A stretch of 64,000 nucleotides of DNA from positions 330,558-394,557 of the forward strand of contig JANPZV010000002.1 of the NCBI GenBank assembly GCA_024707365.1, in the 5' to 3' direction. This document shows positions 3,585-64,000 of this stretch, piece after piece. The DNA comes from Terricaulis sp. (GTDB lineage: Bacteria; Pseudomonadota; Alphaproteobacteria; Caulobacterales; Aquidulcibacteraceae). The position numbers and the translations under genes are program-made. The notes below the pieces were generated by a model that was not told the DNA's origin, ran no database searches, and was given only the letters and a program-made list of their open reading frames with translations. Position 1 is the first letter of the stretch, and every line of letters begins with the position of its first letter.

Positions 3585-4299
3585 CTACCGGCACATCTTG
3601 TCGCGCCCGAGATCGAAATGCAGGTGATCGCGGTGGGCGGCGTTGTAATCGGGGGAGAGCACCGCCTCGAACAACGGGCGGGCAGGCGCCATCGCGCACC
3701 GCGCGGAGGAAGGCGCGCTCCGCAGGCCGGCCGCGCCAGCCGCCCAGCACCTTGATTTCGCTGCCATCTTCCAGCGTGAAGCCGCCAATATCGACGGCGT
3801 TGGCGCGCGCATGCTCGCTGAGCCGGCGATCGCTGCGCCCCGCCACTTGGCGGCAGGCATAGACCGCCCCGGCCAGATCAATGCGCGCCACGCCCTGGCC
3901 CAGATGCTCGGCCGCCGCCGGGGCCACCACGTCCCGCTCCCACAGCGCCAGCGCCGCGGCCAGCGCGCAGGAGCCGCCCACCGGGCTCGAATAAGGGTGC
4001 ACCGAAAGCGTCAGCTCCACCGCCTCGTCATAGCCGCAGGCCCCCTCGCGCCGATCCGGCAGTTCCGCGATTCCAAAGCCGGCCTCTTCCAGCGCCGCCC
4101 GGCAGATGGCCACATCGTCCTGAAACACCGCGATCTGGTCGGTGCGCAGCAGCGCAGGCTCGGCTGGCGGCTCGGGCACAGCCGGCCGGAGCAGGAACAG
4201 CCCGCCCATCAGCACGGCCAGCCCCGCCAGCGCGCCGGCGGCGACCAGCCTGGCCCGCGCCTGGCCTTCTGCTTTTAGAGGACGAAAGAAACCCAGCAT
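3585..4299 (-). CDS. Extensin-like / M15-type peptidase family protein (frameshifted)
   Basis: Membrane-anchored periplasmic protein. An N-terminal transmembrane helix (residues about 17-38) is followed by an extensin-like C-terminal domain, which shares the metal-binding layout of M15 D-Ala-D-Ala peptidases: a His-x6-Asp motif in SEHARANAVDIGGF and a terminal HRDHLHFD. A cell-wall role is inferred. The frame breaks near 3680: the first part ends in RAVRDGAC and the rest (PLFEAVLSPDYNAAHRDH) continues one base over. Removing one C from the C run of the coding strand restores a family-like sequence, so this is probably a sequencing error rather than a pseudogene. The gene ends 57 bp before the PIMT-like start. 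Confidence 0.75.
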
Positions 4300-54699: not shown

Positions 54700-55665
54700 G
54701 TGCGCAGTGTGACCGATATCAGTGCGCCAGAGCCCGCCTTCATCCGCGTTGCGGGCGTGCGCCACGCTTATCGCGGCGCGCCAGCGCCCGCGCTGGACGG
54801 CGTCAGCTTCGACATCGCCCAGGGCGCCTGCTTTGGCCTGCTTGGCCCCAACGGCGCGGGCAAGAGCACGCTGTTTGCGCTGCTGACGGGCGTGCGCAAG
54901 CTGCAAAGCGGGGAGATCAGCGTGGGCGGGATTTCCGCGCGCGCCGATCTGCCGGGCCTGCGCGCCCAAGGCGCGATCGCACCGCAAGATCTGGCGTTTT
55001 ACCCCGACCTCACCGGCCGCGAGAATCTCGATTTCTTCGCCGGCGCCTATCGGCTCGACCGCGCAGCGTGGCGCGAGGCGATGGCGCGCGCAGTGGAAAC
55101 ATGCCAGCTCAGCGAGGTGCTCGACCGGCGCGCCGAAACTTATTCGGGCGGGCTCAAGCGCCGGCTTAATCTCGCCATCGCGCTGCTGAACGAGCCGCGC
55201 GTGCTTTATCTGGATGAGCCCACCGTGGGCATCGACGCCCGCTCGCGCCGGCTGATCGTGGATGCGATCGCGGCGCTGAAAGCAGAGGGCGTCACCATCA
55301 TCTACACCTCCCATTACATGGAAGAGGTGGAAGCGCTGTGCGATGGCGCGGCGATCATCGATCGCGGGCGCGTGGTGGCGCAAGGCTCGATCCGTGAGAT
55401 CGTGCGCGCCCATGGCGGCGGCGCTTTGGAACTGGTGTTCGCCGCCCCTGCCGGCGATGGCTTGCGCGCCGGCCTTGCCCCACTCGGCGCTGTGTGGCGC
55501 GACGAGCAAACCGCCGCCATTGCCGCAGCAGACGGCGAAACCATTGCGCGCGCGGTGGACGCCGTCACCCAAAGCGGGGCGCCGCTGGCGCACATGAATT
55601 TCGGCCAGGCGCGGCTTGAGGCGGCGTATCTCAGCGTGCTGGGCCAAAGCGGGGATGAGGCATGA
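54700..55665 (+). CDS. ABC transporter ATP-binding protein of biosynthetic cluster
   Basis: 321-residue ATPase with Walker A GPNGAGKST (residues 49-57), signature YSGGLKRR (148-155) and Walker B VLYLDEP (168-174), of the type that energises ABC-2 exporters. It starts with GTG at 54700; a second GTG at 54709 is an alternative. The next gene overlaps by ATGA and encodes the ABC-2 permease. Similar ABC pairs are found within flexirubin and aryl-polyene clusters, where they are thought to move the lipid product across the inner membrane. That role is inferred from context. Confidence 0.9.
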   Translation: MRSVTDISAPEPAFIRVAGVRHAYRGAPAPALDGVSFDIAQGACFGLLGPNGAGKSTLFALLTGVRKLQSGEISVGGISARADLPGLRAQGAIAPQDLAFYPDLTGRENLDFFAGAYRLDRAAWREAMARAVETCQLSEVLDRRAETYSGGLKRRLNLAIALLNEPRVLYLDEPTVGIDARSRRLIVDAIAALKAEGVTIIYTSHYMEEVEALCDGAAIIDRGRVVAQGSIREIVRAHGGGALELVFAAPAGDGLRAGLAPLGAVWRDEQTAAIAAADGETIARAVDAVTQSGAPLAHMNFGQARLEAAYLSVLGQSGDEA

Positions 55666-56852
55666 GGCGCTCGGCCACCCTCGCCGCGATTATCAAGGAA
55701 TTGCGCCTGATCCGGCGCGATCCGCATGGGCTGGCGCTTTTGTTCGTGCTGCCGCTGGTGTTCATCCTCATCATGTCGCTGGCGATGCGCGATCTTTACG
55801 CGACCCGCGCCGGCGCCGGCGTTGGCGTTCTGGTGATCGATCGCGGCGGCGGCGCGCAGGCTGAGGCGCTCTATCAGCGGCTTGCCGCCAACCAGGGTTT
55901 TGCACTGACGCGCCTTGCCGAAGCCGCCGATGCGCGCGCGGCGTTGCGCGCGGGCGATTACGCTTTTGCGGTGGAGCTGCCTGCGGATTTTGAAACCCGC
56001 ATCGGCGAAGCCGCATTGCTTGCCTCGCAAAGCGCCCTGGTGCGCGTGACGGTGGCGGCCGATACAAGCCGGCAGCTTGAGCTGATCTTCAACGCCGCGC
56101 TGCGCGAGGCGCTGCAAAGGCAGCGCGCGGAGATCATGCTCACGCGCATGGGCGTGACCTCGCTCGCGGCCGAGGATGAAGCCTCAAGCCGCCGCGTTGA
56201 GACTGTGTACGCCTATGAAGGCGCGCGCGCGGCGGCGCCCAGCGCGGTGCAGCAGAACGTGCCAGCCTGGCTTGTGTTTGCGCTTTTCTTCGTGGCCGTG
56301 CCGTTCTCGAACGCTTTTATCAAGGAGCGCCAGCACGGCGCGCTGGCGCGGCTGCGCAGCACCAATATGGGCGCGGGCGCGCAATTTGCCGGCAAGCTCG
56401 CGCCCTATTTCGCCATCAACCAGATCCAGGTCGTGCTTATGCTGCTGGCGGGGGCCTTTCTTGTGCCGCTGCTGGGCGGGGAAGCGCTGGCGCTCAATGG
56501 CGCGCCCTTGGGCTTTATCCTGCTATCAACCGCGCTTTCGATCGCGGCGCTGGGCATGGCGATGCTGATCGCGGTGATCGCGCGCACCAGCGAGCAGGCC
56601 ACGCTCACAGCCGGGGTGGGCAATATCGTGCTGGCCGCCATTGGCGGGGTGATGGTGCCGAAATTCGTCATGCCCGAAGCGATGCAGACGCTGGCGGGCT
56701 TTTCGCCCATGGCCTGGGGCGTCGATGGATTTCTGGAATTGCTGCTGCGCGGCGGCGGCGTTCTGGACATTCAAATGGAATTGCTAAAATTAACCGGCTT
56801 TGGCTTGGCGGCGCTGGCGCTTGCTTGGGCGCTTTACCGGCCGCAGGAGTAA
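55662..56852 (+). CDS. ABC-2 type permease of biosynthetic cluster
   Basis: 396 residues. One N-terminal helix (LALLFVLPLVFILIMSLAM) is followed by a large extracytoplasmic domain (residues about 50-200) and five more helices, beginning LVFALFFVAVPFSNAFIKER; this is the ABC-2 (DrrB/NodJ-like) arrangement. The conserved FIKERQHGALARLRSTNM segment links to the ATPase. Starts by ATGA overlap with the ATP-binding gene and is followed two bases later by the ACP gene, so exporter and carrier protein share one operon. Confidence 0.88.
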   Translation: MRRSATLAAIIKELRLIRRDPHGLALLFVLPLVFILIMSLAMRDLYATRAGAGVGVLVIDRGGGAQAEALYQRLAANQGFALTRLAEAADARAALRAGDYAFAVELPADFETRIGEAALLASQSALVRVTVAADTSRQLELIFNAALREALQRQRAEIMLTRMGVTSLAAEDEASSRRVETVYAYEGARAAAPSAVQQNVPAWLVFALFFVAVPFSNAFIKERQHGALARLRSTNMGAGAQFAGKLAPYFAINQIQVVLMLLAGAFLVPLLGGEALALNGAPLGFILLSTALSIAALGMAMLIAVIARTSEQATLTAGVGNIVLAAIGGVMVPKFVMPEAMQTLAGFSPMAWGVDGFLELLLRGGGVLDIQMELLKLTGFGLAALALAWALYRPQE

Positions 56853-56854
56853 TC

Positions 56855-57121
56855 ATGCCCGCACCCGACACCGCCACCCTGATCGCCGAACTCAAACAGG
56901 TGATAATCACCGAATGCGATAAGGAGGTAACCCCCGATGAGATCGATCAGGCCGATCGGCTGATCGGCGGGGCGCTGGAGCTTGATTCGCTTGATGCGTT
57001 GCAGCTCAGCCTTGCGGTGAAGGAGCGTTACGGCGTGCGCATCGAAGGCGGGCCCGATGGGCGCGCCGCGTTTGAAACGCTGGAGACGCTGGCGAAATTC
57101 ATCCAAGAGCGGGCCGCATGA
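56855..57121 (+). CDS. Acyl carrier protein of biosynthetic cluster
   Basis: 88-residue ACP with the phosphopantetheine-bearing Ser45 in LELDSLDALQLSL. Acidic helices II/III are conserved (KERYGVRIEGGPDGRAAF). It probably carries the growing acyl chain for the cluster ketosynthases, like DarC or ApeE/F-type ACPs. An AGGAGT ribosome site precedes ATG at 56855. Its stop overlaps the ketosynthase start (ATGA). Confidence 0.9.
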   Translation: MPAPDTATLIAELKQVIITECDKEVTPDEIDQADRLIGGALELDSLDALQLSLAVKERYGVRIEGGPDGRAAFETLETLAKFIQERAA

Positions 57122-58260
57122 AGCGCAGCGCCTTTTTAGGCGCGGGCGTTCACACCGCGCTGGGCGCGGGGCTTGCGCAAAATATCGAGGCGTTGTTCGC
57201 CGCCCCACCGAAAGCGGGGGAAGCTGCGCTGCAAGTTGGCGCTGAAAACGTGCGCGTGCCGGCGCTGCTTTTGGCGGAGCGCCCGCTCGATGACATCGAG
57301 GCGCGCTTCTGGCGCGCGGCGGAAGCGGTGGTGGGGCACGCCATCGCCGCCGCGGGGCTTACGCAAGACGAAGTGCGCCAGGCCGCCTTCCTGATCGGCA
57401 CCTCATCGCTCGACATCGCCGTCAGCGAAGCGATCTATCAGCGCGAGCTCAGCGAGGGCGCGGACGCCCATCCGCTCACCAGCAATTCCACCATGGGGCG
57501 CCTCGCCCAACGCTTGCGCCAGGCGCACGGCATTGGCGGCCCCGAATACACGATCTGCACCGCCTGCACCGCCAGCGCCAATGCGCTGCTTTATGCGGAT
57601 CAACTCGTGCAAAGCGGGCGCGTGCGCCACGCTATCGTGGTGGGCGTTGAGATTTTCAACCAGATCACCGCGCTTGGCTTTCATGGGCTGGAGCTTTTGG
57701 CCAAGGACGGCATGAAGCCGTTCGACAGCGCGCGCGGCGGGCTCACGCTCGGCGAAAGCTGCGCGGCTCTGGTGATTGGGCAAGCGCGCACGGAAGGCTT
57801 TCATCTGCGCGGCGGCGCCAATCTCTGCGATATTCACGGCATTTCCGCCGCCAACCCCGACGGCTCCACCGTGGCCGACGTGATCCGTCTTGCGCTGGCC
57901 GATGCGCAACTGGCGCCCGATCAAATCGATGGCGTCAAAGCGCACGGCACGGCCAGCCTGATGAACGACGAAGCGGAGGCGGCGGGCATGGCGCTGGTGT
58001 TTGAAACCGCCCCGCCGATCTGCGCGCTGAAGCCATTCATCGGCCACACCTTCGGCGCGTGCGGGGTCACTGAACTCATTCTCTTCTGCGGCATGATCGA
58101 GCGCGGCTATTTTCCCGCCACGCCGGGCGTGTGCGCAGAGCCGAGCGATCTTGGCGTGCGGCTTGAGCAAAAGCCGCTGCCGATTAGGCCGGGCGTGTTT
58201 CAGCTCAATTTCTTCGGCTTTGGCGGCAACAACACCTCGCTGGTGATCGCCAATGGCTGA
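57118..58260 (+). CDS. Beta-ketoacyl-ACP synthase (KAS I/II type)
   Basis: 380-residue thiolase-fold ketosynthase with a complete Cys-His-His triad: Cys150 in CTACTASANALLYA, His276 in VKAHGTAS and His310 in KPFIGHTFGACG, with Lys305 nearby. It should elongate ACP-bound chains by decarboxylative condensation. Such KAS proteins are present in aryl-polyene and flexirubin loci, where pairs build the polyene or acyl chain. Start overlaps the ACP stop by 4 nt, and the next gene overlaps its end by 8 nt, indicating tight coupling. Confidence 0.88.
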   Translation: MKRSAFLGAGVHTALGAGLAQNIEALFAAPPKAGEAALQVGAENVRVPALLLAERPLDDIEARFWRAAEAVVGHAIAAAGLTQDEVRQAAFLIGTSSLDIAVSEAIYQRELSEGADAHPLTSNSTMGRLAQRLRQAHGIGGPEYTICTACTASANALLYADQLVQSGRVRHAIVVGVEIFNQITALGFHGLELLAKDGMKPFDSARGGLTLGESCAALVIGQARTEGFHLRGGANLCDIHGISAANPDGSTVADVIRLALADAQLAPDQIDGVKAHGTASLMNDEAEAAGMALVFETAPPICALKPFIGHTFGACGVTELILFCGMIERGYFPATPGVCAEPSDLGVRLEQKPLPIRPGVFQLNFFGFGGNNTSLVIANG

Positions 58261-59138
58261 TGTGATCATCCGCGGCTGCGGCGATTATTATGCGCCGGTG
58301 GAGGGTGAGGCCCTGCCGGACGTGCGCGCGCTCGCCAAGGAAACGCTTGGCAAGCAGGTGCGGCGCGTGGGGCGCTTTATTCTGCTGGGGCTCGTGGGCG
58401 CGGCGCGCTGCGTGGGCGCGCACGCCCCGCCCGCGCACACCGCGATCTATCTCAGCTCCCGGCGCGGGGATCTCGAAACCAATGTCGAGGTGATGCAGGA
58501 TTTGTTCGCGCGCGGGCTCGCGCCCAAGCCGCTCTCCTTCATCAACACCGTCTCCAACGCCTCCTGCTATTATGTGGCGCGGCATTTCGGGCTGCACGGG
58601 CGCTCGCTGTTTGTGAGCGGGGTGTGCTTTTCGTTTGAAACCGCGCTGCAGGCGGCGCTGCTGGATTTCGAGGCAGGGCAAGTGCGCTCGGCGCTGGTGG
58701 GCGGGCTCGATACGCTGATCGCGCCGCTGGCGATTGAGCGGCGCCGGCTTGGGCTCGCGCCGGGCGCGCCGGTTGCGGAGGCGAGCCATTGGCTCTGGCT
58801 GGAAACCGGGCCGGCGCAGCCGGGCGACCTGGTGCTGGAGGCGAGCGAAGCGTTCGCCGATCGCGCCGCCCTCATCGCCTGGCTCAGCGCGCGCGGAACT
58901 GAAAAAAACCGTGCTGGCGCAGGGGCAATATCTGGACGCCGCCGCCTTCGCCGCGATCGCCGCCGAGGCGGGCCTGCCCCGCTCGTTCCGCTACCGCGAC
59001 GGGCGCGCCTATTATGACGGGCAGGCAGCGGCGGCCTTAAGCGCCTTTGCAGCCTCCGATCTCGACGGCGCTGTGCTGACGCATATAAATGCGGATGCCG
59101 ATGGCCGATACGCGGCCTTCGTGGCGCGCAGGGTTTAA
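58253..59138 (+). CDS. Short ketosynthase-like partner protein (frameshifted)
   Basis: About 295 residues, shorter than a normal KAS. The N-terminal half has a thiolase-like core, LFVSGVCFSFETALQAAL (candidate Cys125), and LVGGLDTLIAPLA. After the frameshift near 58895 the C-terminal half continues KKTVLAQGQYLDAAAF and LDGAVLTHINADADGR, but I cannot find the HGT or GHxxGA histidine motifs. It resembles a KAS N-terminal or chain-length-factor-type partner that may pair with the upstream KAS. It starts inside the KAS gene (8-nt overlap). The break is probably a sequencing error. Confidence 0.6.
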
Positions 59139-59155
59139 ACGAGCCGGGGGCTCAG

Positions 59156-59677
59156 GTGCCTAAAGTCATCACCAATTACATGACCGCGAAAACCGAGGGC
59201 GATTTCGTCGTCCTCTTGACGGGCATGCGCATCAACAAATTCTGGAAGATCTGGAAATGGCTGCCTGTGTTCATCGCCATGCCGCGCATGAACCATGAGC
59301 TGATGAAGCACCCTGAGCTTGGGCTTTTGCACTATCGCAATCATGTCGGCTTTCGCGAGATGATGGTGGTGCAATATTGGGAGAGCTGGGAAAAGCTGCA
59401 CGCCTGGGCGACAGACCCAACCCGCCGCCACCTGCCCGCCTGGCTTAAGCTCAACAAGGATGTGGGGCTCAACGGCGATGTCGGCACCTGGCACGAAACC
59501 TACATCGTCAAGGAGCGCGCGCAGTTTGAGTGCCTGTACGTGAACATGCCCCCGCATGGGCTTGGCAAAGCCATGGGCGTGGCTGAAGCGCGCGGATCAA
59601 AGCGCACGGCCAAAGGGCGCCCTAGGCCAGAAGGAAAGCGCGATCCCGACGCCGCCGCCGGTGAAAGAGCCGGCTAA
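59156..59677 (+). CDS. DUF4188 family protein (monooxygenase-like)
   Basis: 173 residues beginning with GTG at 59156. The stretch DFVVLLTGMRINKFWKIWKW and the later HVGFREMMVVQYWESWEKLH are DUF4188 features; the fold is related to dimeric alpha/beta-barrel (ABM-type) monooxygenases. The WHETYIV segment is typical. A disordered basic tail of about 35 residues follows. It may oxidise or decorate the cluster product; DUF4188 is not a standard member of flexirubin loci, so this is an inference from position. Its 3' end overlaps the convergent BtrH-like gene by 4 bp. Confidence 0.65.
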   Translation: MPKVITNYMTAKTEGDFVVLLTGMRINKFWKIWKWLPVFIAMPRMNHELMKHPELGLLHYRNHVGFREMMVVQYWESWEKLHAWATDPTRRHLPAWLKLNKDVGLNGDVGTWHETYIVKERAQFECLYVNMPPHGLGKAMGVAEARGSKRTAKGRPRPEGKRDPDAAAGERAG

Positions 59678-60672
59678 AGTCCGCGAAGCAGAGCCCACAT
59701 TTCTTGCTCGCGATCGGCAACGTGATTGAGCTGCGCATCGAGCGCCTTCACATCCATCTTCGCGCGGCCACGGCACATCTTGGTGGCGTTGAGCGCAAAG
59801 CGCCGCCACTCATCGCCCGCATCGGTGAACGCCTTTGAGGCTTCAAGCAGGCGATCGTTGTTGAGCAGCTTGCCCGCTTCTTGCAGGAACGAGGCGTAGA
59901 GGAAACGGAAGCCCGCCCCGCCCGTGCCGATCTCTTCCTGCATGCGCACGATATGGCCAAGATAAAGCGGCAGCATCTTCTCGGCTTCGGCGCCTTGGGA
60001 CACCTTGACGATATTGCGCCCTAAAAAGCGAATGCCGCGAATGCCGGCGATCGGCACCGGGCCGTTCATGGTTTTATAATTCCAGCGGATCGCGCTTTTG
60101 ATCACGCGCTCATAATCGACGCTGCTGGGCAATTCGGTGGGGTAATACATGTGGCCTTTGGCGGCCATGTCGCCCTTGGCGAAGCGCGCGCGCGTGAGCG
60201 CGGGGCCATCGCAGCGCGTGGTTTCCTCAAACACCGGATCGCTGATGAGATAATCCTCACCATCGCGGCCATAGACGACGATATTGTGCGAATTGAAATG
60301 GAAGCGCATTTCCTCGGGGAAATACGGCAGCCAATAGATGCAGGTTTGCAAGCCCACCGGCCGGCCCGCGCGCACTTCTTCGTCAAGCGCCGCAGCGCCC
60401 GCGCGCGGATCGGAAAAGCGCCGCCGCGCCCATTTCATGCCGAGCCGCTTTTCCACCCCGCGAATGATCGAGCCCGGAAACATCCGATACGCGATCACCG
60501 GCATGCCGGCCATTTTGATCATCGGCATGTAAGCAAAGGTGAGCGAGGCCGAGATGCCGAACGCCATCGCCTCGCTCATCGGCAAGCCGTGATGGGTGAG
60601 CAGGTTCGACACCACGCCGCTTTCGCAATGGGCCGATTGGCGATGCTGGAAGGGAGCGGCGGCGTCAAACAT
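59674..60672 (-). CDS. BtrH N-terminal-domain protein
   Basis: 332 residues. The N-terminal papain-like domain of the butirosin BtrH family has a candidate nucleophile Cys16 in QHRQSAHCESGVVSNLL and a histidine in FHFNSHNIVVYGRDGEDYLI with an aspartate in SDPVF. BtrH transfers an acyl group from ACP to an amine; the same domain family occurs in flexirubin-type loci, where it may be a tailoring acyltransferase. The C-terminal region is helical. The start at 60672 lies 8 nt inside the end of the upstream HTH-like gene. Reaction here is inferred. Confidence 0.75.
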   Translation of the reverse strand: MFDAAAPFQHRQSAHCESGVVSNLLTHHGLPMSEAMAFGISASLTFAYMPMIKMAGMPVIAYRMFPGSIIRGVEKRLGMKWARRRFSDPRAGAAALDEEVRAGRPVGLQTCIYWLPYFPEEMRFHFNSHNIVVYGRDGEDYLISDPVFEETTRCDGPALTRARFAKGDMAAKGHMYYPTELPSSVDYERVIKSAIRWNYKTMNGPVPIAGIRGIRFLGRNIVKVSQGAEAEKMLPLYLGHIVRMQEEIGTGGAGFRFLYASFLQEAGKLLNNDRLLEASKAFTDAGDEWRRFALNATKMCRGRAKMDVKALDAQLNHVADREQEMWALLRGL

Positions 60673-61069
60673 TGTCAGGTAATCCGCGCAATTCTTCGAT
60701 CGTGATGCCCATGACGAACGCATAGCGCTCGTGCAGATCGGCGCTCAGCTTTGGAAACACGTCCGGCTTCAAATGCCGCGCAACGCGCCATTTCCAGATG
60801 CCGGTGGTGGCTGAAAGCGTGGCGAGATCCATGCGCCGGGCGTACATGTGATATTCAAGCGTGGAGGCTTTGCCCGCCTTGGCGCGCACAAGCGCCGCCT
60901 CGGCTTGGCGCTTCAGCTCATCCACCGCCGCAAGCGTGACGTAGTTTTCAACCTCCCAGCCGGTGGATTGCACCCCGCCATACTCGCCCTTTTCATCGAC
61001 GGCGTAGAGCAGCTTGCGGATGCCGGCGTGGATCTGGCTGGGATCTTGGGGGACTTCGTCCTTCTTCAT
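60665..61069 (-). CDS. HTH-like small protein of cluster
   Basis: 134 residues. The N-terminal part (SQIHAGIRKLLYAVDEKGEY) and helical linker precede residues about 79-125, which look like a Cro/C1-type helix-turn-helix: MDLATLSATTGIWKWRVARH then YAFVMGITIEELRGL. Similar proteins sit beside BtrH-like and dar genes in flexirubin clusters. It could be a local regulator or an assembly partner. Its stop overlaps the BtrH-like start by 8 nt; it is 18 nt after the stop of the KAS III gene. Confidence 0.6.
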   Translation of the reverse strand: MKKDEVPQDPSQIHAGIRKLLYAVDEKGEYGGVQSTGWEVENYVTLAAVDELKRQAEAALVRAKAGKASTLEYHMYARRMDLATLSATTGIWKWRVARHLKPDVFPKLSADLHERYAFVMGITIEELRGLPDNV

Positions 61070-61087
61070 GTCACACCGCCCTCATGC

Positions 61088-62228
61088 TCACACCGCAGTG
61101 ACCTGGAAGAAGCAGCCCGAGAAGCGCCCGCTTTCCGGCACCCAGCAGAGCACCCGCTCCCCGCGCTTCAGATTGCCCGAACGCACCAGCTCATCGAGCA
61201 TGATGTAGATCGAAGCAGCGCCGGTATTGCCGCGCGTGGTGAGGTTGGTGAACCAACGCTCAAGCGGAATGTCAAAGCCGACATTCTGGATCGCCTGATG
61301 CAGCCGCGGGCGGAAAAATTCCGAGGAATAATGCGGCAAAAACCAGCTGATCGCCTCGGGCTTTAGGTTGTGCTTTTCGATGCAATATTTCAGCGGCCGC
61401 TCAGCCGCATAATGCATCACGTTTTCATTGAGCAGGCGCACGTCCTGCTTGACCGCCATCACCGAATTGCGCGCGCGCTCATCGCCGTCAAACCGGGCCC
61501 AGCCGGTGACCGAGCCATCCTCGTTCTTCACCGCGCCCGCATACATGCAGGTTTCCATCTCGCCCGCATAAGATTGGATCTCGATCCAATCGAGGCGGAA
61601 GATTGAGCGCCCCCTCACGCGGCGCGCTTTCCAGCAGCATCGCGCCGGCGCCGTCCGACAGCATCCAGCGCAGGAAATCCTTCTCGAACGCCAGCTCCGG
61701 CTGGGTTTCAAGTTCGGTGACTTTGGCTTCCACCTCAGCGCTATAATTTTTCGCGCCGAACACGGCCGAGGAAAGCTCAGAGCCGGTTGAAATCGCGCGC
61801 GCGTGCATGCCCGAGGCGACGGAGAAATACGCATATTTCAGCGCCGCCGCGCCCGAAATGCACACCCCGCTGGTGGAGACAACCTCAAGCCCAGGCGCGC
61901 CCAATTCTCCATGCACCATCACGCCATGGCCCGGCACGATCTGATCGGGGATCGAGGTGCCGCTGGCGAGCACGCCGACATCGCTCAAATCAATTCCAAG
62001 CCGGCGCACAGCTTCCGCTGCGAGCGAAGCGTTGGAGTGCGTCGGCGCCAGGGTTTCAGGATCGATCGCGTAATGGCGCGTCTTGATGCCGTTGGAGCGC
62101 AGCACCGTGCGGCGCGCGCGAGAGGGACGCGCCCCCGGCTGGCCCAGCACGCGCTCCATATTGTCGTTATCGACCGGCGCATTCGGCAGGAACGAGGCGG
62201 TCTGCGTGATGTAAACCGACTGCGTCAT
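61088..62228 (-). CDS. darB: DarB-like 3-oxoacyl-ACP synthase III (frameshifted)
   Basis: About 380-residue KAS III-type ketosynthase. The opening VYITQTASFLPNAPVDNDNM and block PSRARRTVLRSNGIKTRHYA are characteristic of the dialkylresorcinol (DarB) branch. The nucleophile is Cys123 in TSGVCISGAAAL; His in WFLPHYSSEFF and Asn in RGNTGAASIYI complete the triad. In known pathways DarB joins two acyl-derived units head to head to make a resorcinol precursor. The frame breaks near 61612, in a run of five G of the coding strand (GAGGGGGCGC); one deletion restores REGRSIFRLDW. Its ATG overlaps the darA stop. Confidence 0.8.
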
Positions 62229-63176
62229 GCTTTGCCTTGCTCCACCAAATGCATCGACTCCCCCGAGGGCGCTGCAAAATATTCACGCTGGCGCGCAATG
62301 CGTTTGCGCGTCAGCGGTTTCAAAATCGCCTTGATGATCGCCAGCAGCGGCACCACCGTGACGATCACCAGGAATAAGAACACCACGTAAAGGCACACAA
62401 GCAGGTTACGCAGCAGATTGCCCGGCTTGCCGGCCGAGCGGATCAGCGCGCCCCATAAACGGAAGCTGCGTTTAATCGCCTTTTCCGATTCAATCAGGCT
62501 CTCGCGCACATGCACGGCGCCAAGGCCGGCGAACATCGGCGATGAATCGCTGCGCTCCCGGCTCGGCAATTGCGCGGCGATGGCGCGGCCAAAGCGGGCG
62601 CTGGCGGCGATGTCTGCGTCAGAGACGCCCGCCGCCGGGATCATGCCGCCGAAGAACGGGCCCTTATCGCCCGTCAGCAGCCAGGCCGGCGTCGAATAGA
62701 AGGTGAAGGCCGAGTGGGTGCTGTCAGACAGCACCACATTGTCGATGATGCGCCCGCCAAGACCGGCGACGATCTCCTTCACCCGCTCCTGCGCCATCAG
62801 CCACATATTGCGGCAGCCGCACAGCGTGATGACGGGCCGATCCTTGAACAGCGCCTTCGCGCCCTCCGATTTCAAGAACGCCTGCACCGGCAGCGACGGT
62901 TGCAGAAACCAGACTTGGTACGCGAGCACGATCAGATCGTAATCCTTGCCCGCATCGATCGGCGCCCTCGACCGGGGCGATGTCCTCGTAGATGGTTTCG
63001 GGGAAGGTGTTGAAGAAGCGCAGCGCCGGCCAGGGAAACGGATAAGATGAAGGCGGCGCGATCTCGACCACGTCGAGTTCAATATCCGTGCGCTCACCCA
63101 GCGGCGCCAGCGCCGCGTGAACGATGTCGCGCAACTGGCCCGTCTGCGAAAAATAGACCGCCAGAACCCGTTTCAT
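62225..63176 (-). CDS. darA: DarA-like dialkylresorcinol condensing enzyme (frameshifted)
   Basis: About 316 residues. The flavodoxin-like N-terminus (MKRVLAVYFSQTGQLRDIVH, then PSSYPFPWPALRFFNTFPETI) is characteristic of proteins annotated DarA in flexirubin and dialkylresorcinol clusters. DLIVLAYQVWFLQPSLPVQ and VITLCGCRNMW follow. A C-terminal hydrophobic hairpin (CLYVVFLFLVIVTVVPLLA) suggests membrane association. DarA is thought to act with DarB in ring closure or aromatisation. The frame breaks near 62966 (extra G in GAGGGCGCCGATC). Ends with ATGA overlap into darB. Confidence 0.75.
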
Positions 63177-63256
63177 AGCAAATTAACCCATCCCGCTCGC
63201 GGCGGACTGAACACGCAATCGCAGCATCGGGCAAGCCAAGCCCGCGCATTTGCAGG

Positions 63257-63574
63257 CTATTGCGGCGTTCGCGCCGCAGCGCCAGCGCCTTGCGCGAGCA
63301 GCAGCTGCCCAGAAGCGAGCGGCTCTTCGCCCACGCTGACGGTAAAGCGCACGCCTTGGTTTTGCGGCGCGCTGAAAGCGATGCTGAACGCCTCGCCCGG
63401 CGCCAAGGGCCGGGTGAATTTCATGCGCTTCACGCCCCGCGCGGCAAGGCCGGTTTGCGCCGCCAGCTCTGCGACGATCCGCGCAAGGATCACCACGCCG
63501 GGCGCGATCGGATGGCCGGGAAAATGGCCCGGCAAGGCAGGATGATCGGCGGGAATGACGTGTTGCGTCGGCAT
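63257..63574 (-). CDS. Hotdog-fold 3-hydroxyacyl-ACP dehydratase (ApeI/FabZ-like)
   Basis: 105 residues. The FabZ/ApeI-type signature ALPGHFPGHPIAPGVVIL includes the catalytic histidine, and LAPGEAFSIAFSAP is typical. It would dehydrate 3-hydroxyacyl-ACPs during polyene or acyl chain formation. The start at 63574 is 48 bp from the divergent hotdog gene at 63622, leaving room for two promoters. It heads the minus-strand operon toward darA, with an 80-bp gap. Confidence 0.75.
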   Translation of the reverse strand: MPTQHVIPADHPALPGHFPGHPIAPGVVILARIVAELAAQTGLAARGVKRMKFTRPLAPGEAFSIAFSAPQNQGVRFTVSVGEEPLASGQLLLAQGAGAAARTPQ

Positions 63575-63621
63575 GCCCGCTCCCTTATGGGCCGCCCAAG
63601 CCGCTGACAACAGGACATGCA

Positions 63622-64000
63622 ATGCTGGACCGCGACGCCATTGCGCGCCTCATCCCCCATGCGGGCGCGATGTGCCTGCTGGCCAGGGTGGTCGTGCATG
63701 ACGCAACGTCAATCACCTGCGAGGCCGAGAGCCACCGCGATGGCGACAATCCGCTGCGCAACACAACCGGCCTGCCCGTCAGCGCCGGGATCGAATACGC
63801 CGCCCAGGCCATCGCCTTGCACGCCGCCCTGCGCAAAGGCGCCGGCCCCTCCGGCCGAGGCTTCCTGGCGGTCTTGAGCGACGTGCGCTGGAGCCGCGAG
63901 CGGCTGGACGACCTGCCCGCGCCCTTACTTATCCAAGCCGACCTGCTCGCCGACACCGGCGGCGGCCTCCAGTACCGCTTTTCGGTGAGGATAGAGGGTG
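63622..64000 (+). CDS. Hotdog-fold dehydratase-like protein (ApeP-like), cut by right edge
   Basis: At least 126 residues in an open frame that runs off the window. The opening DRDAIARLIPHAGAMCLLAR, with the IPHAG motif, and the block GLPVSAGIEYAAQAIALHAA resemble ApeP-type 3-hydroxyacyl-ACP dehydratases of aryl-polyene clusters. A CAGGAC ribosome site precedes the ATG. Divergent from the ApeI/FabZ-like gene, so the cluster continues rightwards, where further KAS, ketoreductase or glycosyl/acyltransferase genes would be expected. Confidence 0.7.
   Translation, partial: MLDRDAIARLIPHAGAMCLLARVVVHDATSITCEAESHRDGDNPLRNTTGLPVSAGIEYAAQAIALHAALRKGAGPSGRGFLAVLSDVRWSRERLDDLPAPLLIQADLLADTGGGLQYRFSVRIEG

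Follow-up and report, generated by a model that had tools for sequence, protein, structure and literature searches.

A stretch of 64,000 nucleotides from Terricaulis sp. (GenBank assembly GCA_024707365.1, contig JANPZV010000002.1, positions 330,558 to 394,557), referred to here as the window, carries at its right end a twelve-gene dialkylresorcinol (DAR) cluster (54700-64050, the final 50 bases lying beyond the window end). This cluster is probably the DAR half of a two-locus pigment pathway of the flexirubin/arcuflavin type, in which an aryl-polyene acid is esterified to a dialkylresorcinol. The evidence consists of gene content, its conservation, co-occurrence with polyene genes, one case of adjacency, protein folds, and the catalytic residues of DarB and of the ketosynthase KS1. 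An initial annotation of the window had proposed a DarA/DarB locus in an alphaproteobacterium, and this is borne out for a member of the Caulobacterales: DarH and DarG score above curated cut-offs, and DarB matches StlD. The parts that it listed, namely an ATP-binding cassette (ABC) exporter, an acyl carrier protein (ACP), a beta-ketoacyl synthase (KAS), a KAS-like partner, DarB, DarA, a BtrH-N protein and two hotdog proteins, are all present. Its list omitted the PF13826 gene at 59156-59677, and the second hotdog gene ends outside the window, at 64050.

Co-occurrence with a polyene locus

DarH, the BtrH-type acyltransferase of the cluster, occurs in 8 of 299 genomes in a sample of the order, distributed over 6 of 54 genera. 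DarB is above its cut-off in seven of these 299 genomes, which together with the split copy of the window genome are the same eight. A polyene AMP-binding marker was detected in 14 genomes (E 1e-20), including all eight that encode DarH; the associated Fisher p of 2e-12 overstates the case, because the genomes are related and not independent. Two queries from the polyene locus of genome G180, an AMP-binding/ApeI-like fusion (PF00501, PF22818) and an MMPL-like exporter (PF03176), were both found in 8/8 DarH-positive genomes and in 0/2 DarH-negative congeners (10 genomes searched). In G180, the DAR and polyene loci are adjacent.

The window genome itself has both DAR and polyene genes, with the polyene locus located on contig C5 (approximately 967-984 kb). 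In addition to homologues of the two queries, this locus encodes an LpxL-like acyltransferase, an aromatic amino-acid lyase, a thioesterase-like protein, a LolA-like protein (22.7 bits against a gathering score of 23), a flavin adenine dinucleotide (FAD) enzyme and a DUF3261 protein, along with ketosynthases, a reductase, two ACPs, an acyltransferase and a glycosyltransferase. The polyene ketosynthase model NF006587 (cut-off 470) is matched at 580.6 bits in the congener G226; the copy in the window genome is split, its N-terminal piece scoring 294.5 bits. The AMP-binding and ApeI-like dehydratase domains (PF00501 and PF22818) are above gathering scores in G226 and G180. In the window genome the corresponding protein is in pieces, and the one piece scanned gave no match.

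The lyase on C5 matches PF00221 with 350 bits for its C-terminal piece. An Ala-Ser-Gly motif is kept in the lyases of relatives where it was read, and it is at this point that the frame breaks in the window genome. A close lyase (58-82% identity) is present in all eight DarH-positive genomes and is found at the polyene locus in seven, although in G180 it sits at the end of the examined stretch. In G244, the lyase (70% identity) is on another contig, so that the polyene contig does not merely end before it. More distant lyases (34-36% identity) occur in the DarH-negative congeners, as well as in the window genome besides its close one (34%). Among the genomes of the order that lack DarH, five (G017, G157, G239, G279 and G284) combine the polyene marker with a close lyase and are probable aryl polyene producers without DAR, and one (G229) has the marker without this lyase.

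In a sample of the class, DarH is above its cut-off in one of 385 genomes, that of the window, with two weaker partial matches. A different family of this class perhaps includes a further carrier, with DarH-like fragments where contigs end (G488:C69:2-550 and C110:8-355, 107 and 42 bits). A wider set of DarH relatives, the best 80 of 461 confirmed, comprises Gamma-, Beta- and Alphaproteobacteria, Campylobacterota, Desulfobulbia and a few other metagenome-assembled genomes (MAGs). Eight of these records are alphaproteobacterial: Caulobacteraceae RBC028, PMG_203 and RI_35, Caulobacter RYN_457 and SLTY, Hyphomonadaceae MAG-150, Hirschia SP140 and Hirschia maritima. In 50 DarH-positive genomes taken from the best 80, NF006587 is above its cut-off in 38 (6/6 alphaproteobacteria and 32/44 others), compared with 42 of 299 in a sample of the phylum; only the curated cut-off was used, since a threshold of E 0.001 is unspecific (295/299).

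The gene set had been described in the initial annotation as known mainly from Bacteroidetes and gammaproteobacteria. The range among the best 80 relatives is wider, as listed above. A Bacteroidetes origin is not supported by these sequences, because no record titled Bacteroidota is found among the best 80 of 461, although the DarH tree described below, which had no Bacteroidota row, leaves some room for one. Paraglaciecola loci L086, L104, L107 and L116 and a Thiotrichales MAG (L075) have DarA, DarB, DarG and DarH together with a 57-60% identical lyase within 20-kb loci. Relative to such gammaproteobacterial polyene-DAR clusters, the DarH proteins of Caulobacterales are placed together as a separate group beside gammaproteobacterial MAGs in a quick tree of 86 rows (Shimodaira-Hasegawa-like approximate likelihood ratio test, SH-aLRT, 91, no bootstrap; no Bacteroidota row included).

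Proteins of the dialkylresorcinol cluster

The two pieces of the window's DarB between them keep the Cys, His and Asn residues in an alignment with seven relatives. The intact DarB of G226 scores 579.2 bits against NF005293 (cut-off 450), and those of six other genomes score 568.5-613.5 bits. The closest solved relative is Photorhabdus StlD (PDB 5gk0-5gk2), with the N-terminal piece from the window matching 5gk2 and 5gk0 at E 9e-72. StlD serves stilbene formation in Photorhabdus. It may be that DarB acts in an StlD-like manner on a lyase-derived cinnamoyl thioester and that the head-to-head product of the cluster is another compound, for example an alkyl stilbene, for which the genome also has an aromatic amino-acid lyase. 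However, that lyase is located at the polyene locus in seven of the eight genomes and accompanies polyene genes without DarH in five of six, and a product of this kind seems very improbable.

Weaker StlD/DarB-like ketosynthases (278-357 bits) are encoded in 24 further DarH-negative genomes of the order sample (G057, G230, G053 and others), and G061 has a second one, at 362 bits, besides its true DarB. Two control genomes also match in the DarB search, one of them above the cut-off; Caulobacter vibrioides is among those matching.

DarA has no match in the Pfam or NCBIfam libraries, and its link to tested DarA proteins is therefore by position, a DarA homologue adjoining DarB in the relatives. 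Its profile matches 2mwm and 3edo at E 2.9e-4. The predicted structure of the congener's DarA (predicted local distance difference test, pLDDT, 92.5) consists of a flavodoxin domain like those of WrbA and 3edo (Foldseek E 2e-6 to 7e-6) and long C-terminal helices; the flavodoxin fold assigned at the outset is thus upheld by a structural model, not by a family match. The activities of DarB and DarA in the window are carried over from relatives; darB and darA of Chitinophaga pinensis are reported to have given a DAR in a heterologous host (PMC3992019).

In the alignment with seven relatives, no row of the ketosynthase KS1 lacks the Cys or either of the two His regions. At the Cys position of its neighbor KS2, those relatives have Ser, Tyr, Tyr, Ala, Glu, Glu and Arg, and the window has Cys. 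By its resemblance to a chain-length factor, KS2 is probably a partner without catalytic activity.

In DarH, the motif HRQSAHCE, which includes His and Cys, is invariant in 8/8 rows. This motif, the kinship with BtrH, the tie to polyene genes and the absence of DarH from the free-DAR cluster described in Pseudomonas chlororaphis suggest that DarH may form the polyene-DAR ester. When the DarH alignment was searched against the PDB, the one match obtained was at chance level. DarG is modelled (pLDDT 85.6) as a beta hairpin, a long helix and a C-terminal XRE-like helix-turn-helix fold, and the earlier label of an HTH-like protein can stand. Matches of this fold to the PDB are weak (best E 0.03, none below 0.001), and DNA binding is putative.

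Organization of the cluster

The cluster consists of two facing blocks and a final gene (Table 1). The rightward block (54700-59677) encodes the ABC proteins, ACP, KS1, KS2 and the PF13826 protein; the leftward block, from 63622 down to 59674, encodes a hotdog protein, DarA, DarB, DarG and DarH. The last hotdog gene is again rightward. Homologues of 11 of the 12 genes are grouped together in each of seven other genomes of the order, which excludes chance grouping. In one of these, G061, the group is interrupted between darH and KS2 by an insert of approximately 8 kb (L016:16936-20000, L017:1-4982) encoding a heavy-metal P-type ATPase, a hydrolase-like gene (recognized by eye), an AAA ATPase and a subtilisin-like protease.

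Table 1. Genes of the dialkylresorcinol cluster, in window coordinates
Feature	Position	Strand	Evidence and remarks
ABC transporter ATPase, DarF-like (Azoarcus)	54700..55665	+	PF00005 E 4e-29; homologue in 7/7 relatives
ABC-2 permease, DarI-like	55662..56852	+	PF12698 E 3.5e-30; homologue in 7/7 relatives
Acyl carrier protein, DarC-like	56840..57121	+	PF00550 20.9 bits (cut-off 20.8); motif LDSLDAL; 7/7 relatives
Beta-ketoacyl synthase KS1, DarJ-like	57118..58260	+	PF00109/PF02801; Cys and both His regions in alignment
KS2, ketosynthase-like partner, N-terminal KAS region only	58253..59138	+	PF00109 E 2.3e-6; frame break near 58887
PF13826 monooxygenase af470-like protein	59156..59677	+	E 1.4e-39; 1/7 relatives
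DarH, BtrH-type acyltransferase (BtrH_N + DUF4872), intact	59674..60723	-	NF053550 480.9 bits (cut-off 300); PF14399, PF16169
DarG-family protein	60665..61069	-	NF053536 167.1 bits (cut-off 70); model pLDDT 85.6; weak PDB matches
DarB (StlD/DarB ketosynthase)	61088..62228	-	NF005293 pieces 297.7 + 259.8 bits; frame break near 61604
DarA, flavodoxin fold and long C-terminal helices	62225..63176	-	Homologues (44-66%) adjoining DarB; frame break near 62960
FabA/FabZ-like hotdog protein	63257..63622	-	PF07977 22.1 bits, below gathering 23; 7/7 relatives
ApeP-like hotdog protein, 142 aa	63622..64050 (window ends 64000)	+	PF22817 17.9 bits, below gathering 27; 7/7 relatives

The twelfth gene, which encodes the PF13826 protein, is shared with the congener G226 at 83% identity; no other protein of the block is as similar in this pair of genomes. 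It was not seen in the other six of the seven relatives, and among 80 named loci there was one match, again G226. The base composition of the locus is that of the window. An Rfam scan of the window found three tRNAs and nothing else, and promoter and terminator scans gave no more matches than shuffled sequence. A role in defence was considered and set aside, as PADLOC gave no match for the three proteins scanned.

Relationship to known pigment clusters

The kind of cluster found here is already known. As given in Table 1 of PMC3949708 (darA-darK), the dar set of Azoarcus sp. BH72 matches that of the window, with darA, darB, darD, the BtrH-like darE, the ABC genes darF/darI, the ACP darC and the ketosynthase darJ; judged by its genes, the window cluster is of the same kind as this arcuflavin dar cluster. 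By its BtrH annotation, NCBIfam DarH is equivalent to Azoarcus DarE, and by position DarG is probably DarD. According to the same source, arcuflavin is proposed to be a DAR-polyene ester, and the Azoarcus polyene genes occupy two further, mutually unlinked loci (PMC3949708). The window adds the PF13826 gene and two hotdog genes, whereas the Azoarcus PilT and PHD genes are not among its twelve. Azoarcus is reported to start its polyene from chorismate (ArcB), while the polyene locus of the window genome has an aromatic amino-acid lyase. Across 39 polyene-carrying genomes in that study, DAR genes are given for 16, in nine of which they are within or beside the polyene cluster (PMC3949708).

The flexirubin clusters of C. 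pinensis and Flavobacterium johnsoniae, as described in PMC3992019, combine a lyase-initiated polyene with darA and darB, as here, and C. pinensis likewise has the two sets of genes at a distance from each other. FlxW is proposed there for the step that joins polyene and DAR (PMC3992019).

Frame breaks in the assembly

KS2, DarB and DarA each change frame once, and all three breaks fall within 9.4 kb. If these breaks are real, the locus could be a decaying remnant and the pathway dead in this strain. A custom codon-usage scan for frame changes without a gene boundary, which is a rough measure, gave 16 signals in the window, five in the DAR locus and 11 elsewhere, a somewhat greater density for the locus than for its surroundings; of the five, that at 63183 is just outside darA and that at 63323 is inside the hotdog gene. 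The polyene locus on C5 has four signals by the scan and more by eye. However, seven signals were also found in the 30 kb to the right of the window, including one in GatB, compared with five in approximately 114 kb of control coding sequence (eight stretches from five genomes, four of them relatives and one Caulobacter-like). A GMC oxidoreductase is flagged as well, and PyrB, which looks broken by eye, was left unflagged by the scan. The assembly (3.4 Mb in 8 contigs) has a completeness of 89.73%, and DarH, KS1 and the ABC genes are intact in the window. DarB is open in 7/7 relatives, and 70 open DarA frames were found in 80 loci.

Because the breaks run through the assembly and both proteins are open in relatives, assembly error is likelier than decay, and a dead pathway appears quite unlikely. 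Small errors seem to be frequent in this assembly, and other split genes in the window need care; the signals outside the cluster are at 3684, 8538, 8667, 10822, 15098, 16491, 16794, 17790, 35773, 39252 and 46326.

Genomic site

To the right of 64050 are tRNA-Ser(GCT) (64091-64181) and genes for a sugar transferase, ExbD, GST and GatB, with no polyene genes on this flank. The initial annotation had named a right flank without any aryl-polyene, resorcinol or lipid-tailoring genes as a ground for refutation, and the flank is largely bare of them. The locus nevertheless holds a complete DAR cluster, and contig C5 of this genome carries the polyene genes.

The left and right neighbors of the cluster were sought in seven congeners and are within approximately 8 kb of each other in three (G053, G226 and G117). 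In these, the tRNA-Ser lies between the neighbors, and the DAR site is occupied by three or four other genes, encoding among others a pyridoxal phosphate (PLP)-dependent decarboxylase-like protein, a DsbA-like protein and an esterase. The DAR cluster of G226 is on another contig than its tRNA-Ser site. It follows that the lineage of the window either gained the block at this site or relocated it there. In the remaining four congeners one neighbor is absent or distant, and in G132 the left genes adjoin tRNA-Val. The orientation of the tRNA-Ser at the site (window 54310-64091; L158, L159, L160) is the same in G053 and G226 and opposite in G117 and the window. A tRNA-Ser(GCT) is also found approximately 3 kb from the DAR block of G244, which belongs to another family.

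An att-like repeat of the 3' part of the tRNA-Ser was looked for to the left of the cluster, and the 21-base pattern (up to three mismatches) was found only in the tRNA itself (L003). Ten flank proteins had no match at E 1e-8 in the 34-40 kb around the DAR blocks of seven relatives. Carriage on plasmids was also discounted: of 72,556 plasmid records searched with DarH by tblastn, 95 matched, all below 60% identity, with the 15 listed at 25-32%.

Proposed pathway and implications

The reactions in this organism, including the DarH step, transport and the product, are what we infer from these genes, and the exporter roles and the order of steps follow general knowledge or inference. The C5 lyase would make a cinnamic-type acid, probably 4-coumarate from tyrosine, which the AMP-binding protein would activate for an ACP; ketosynthases, the ketoreductase and dehydratases would then extend this starter to a polyene. 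The ACP, KS1/KS2 and hotdog proteins of the window could supply acyl and beta-ketoacyl thioesters, two of which DarB would condense head to head and close into a ring. DarA, which combines a flavodoxin fold with probable membrane helices, would oxidize the ring to a resorcinol, and DarH may transfer the polyene from its ACP onto a resorcinol hydroxyl. The ABC-2 pair would export the product, possibly assisted to the outer membrane by the MMPL-like and LolA-like proteins of the polyene locus.

Several observations weigh against a joint pigment pathway. The two loci are on separate contigs or more than 300 kb apart in seven of the eight genomes. The close lyase is also present in five of the six polyene-positive genomes that lack DarH, so the lyase is to be counted with the polyene, and a polyene can be present where DAR is not. 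Twelve of the 50 DarH-positive genomes drawn from the best 80 have no NF006587 match above the cut-off (five Betaproteobacteria, two each of Campylobacterota, Desulfobulbia and Gammaproteobacteria, and one Verrucomicrobia MAG); these may use other polyene enzymes or none. The narrow resorcinol model for DarB, NF053539 (cut-off 550), is not reached by G226 (482.3 bits) or by the window's pieces (251.3 and 212). The same is true of the Bacteroidetes-type flexirubin equivalogs for DarG (136.9 against 170) and for the G226 lyase (FlxA, 319.1 against 700). No lyase model was matched above its cut-off, and motif 1 of the lyase is reported to mislead on substrate in the case of FlxA (PMC3992019). The candidacy of DarH as the ester-forming enzyme comes only from family and co-occurrence. 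Frame breaks affect three of the DAR genes and several of those for the polyene in this assembly, so the pathway need not be functional in this strain.

Several of these points would suit a stand-alone DAR pathway, in which the ABC pair exports free resorcinol lipids and the polyene locus makes an aryl polyene independently. The loci are unlinked in the window genome (C8 and C5) and in six of the seven others, and 6 of the 14 polyene-positive genomes of the order lack DarH, so that the polyene is independent of it. An ACP, a ketosynthase and hotdog proteins are encoded within the DAR cluster itself, and free DARs are known from P. chlororaphis, where the cluster for 2-hexyl-5-propylresorcinol consists of darABC and darSR (PMC6403133). 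However, although the darA and darB core is shared, that cluster as described has no DarH, DarG or ABC genes. In addition, all eight DarH-positive genomes of the order sample carry the polyene marker, and the loci are adjacent in G180. A stand-alone pathway is therefore considered unlikely, and an esterified pigment assembled from both loci is preferred. A more specific version is tentative and, on balance, doubtful: the Caulobacterales lineage might make a flexirubin-class pigment from two unlinked loci, with DarH as the missing joining enzyme and the PF13826 protein modifying the product in the genus of the window, which would constitute a new subclass.

Flexirubin has been described as a chemotaxonomic mark of Bacteroidetes (PMC3992019), a use already argued against (PMC3949708). 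Elsewhere in the Alphaproteobacteria, aryl polyene clusters have been reported for the family Acetobacteraceae (PMC8776678). Among the matches listed from the openly licensed PMC literature, no title or abstract dealt with DAR or flexirubin in Caulobacterales, although Table S7 of PMC3949708 may list alphaproteobacteria. Genome G110, which carries the DAR block and a polyene locus with the lyase, appears to be Hirschia baltica IFAM 1418, the colonies of which are described as yellow, those of IFAM 1408 being white (PMC3368421). If the proposed pathway is correct, the combination of DAR with a lyase-started polyene in Caulobacterales would take flexirubin-type pigments into another class, and the presence of an apparently culturable, yellow type strain among the carriers would provide a tractable host in which to identify the enzyme that joins the two halves.

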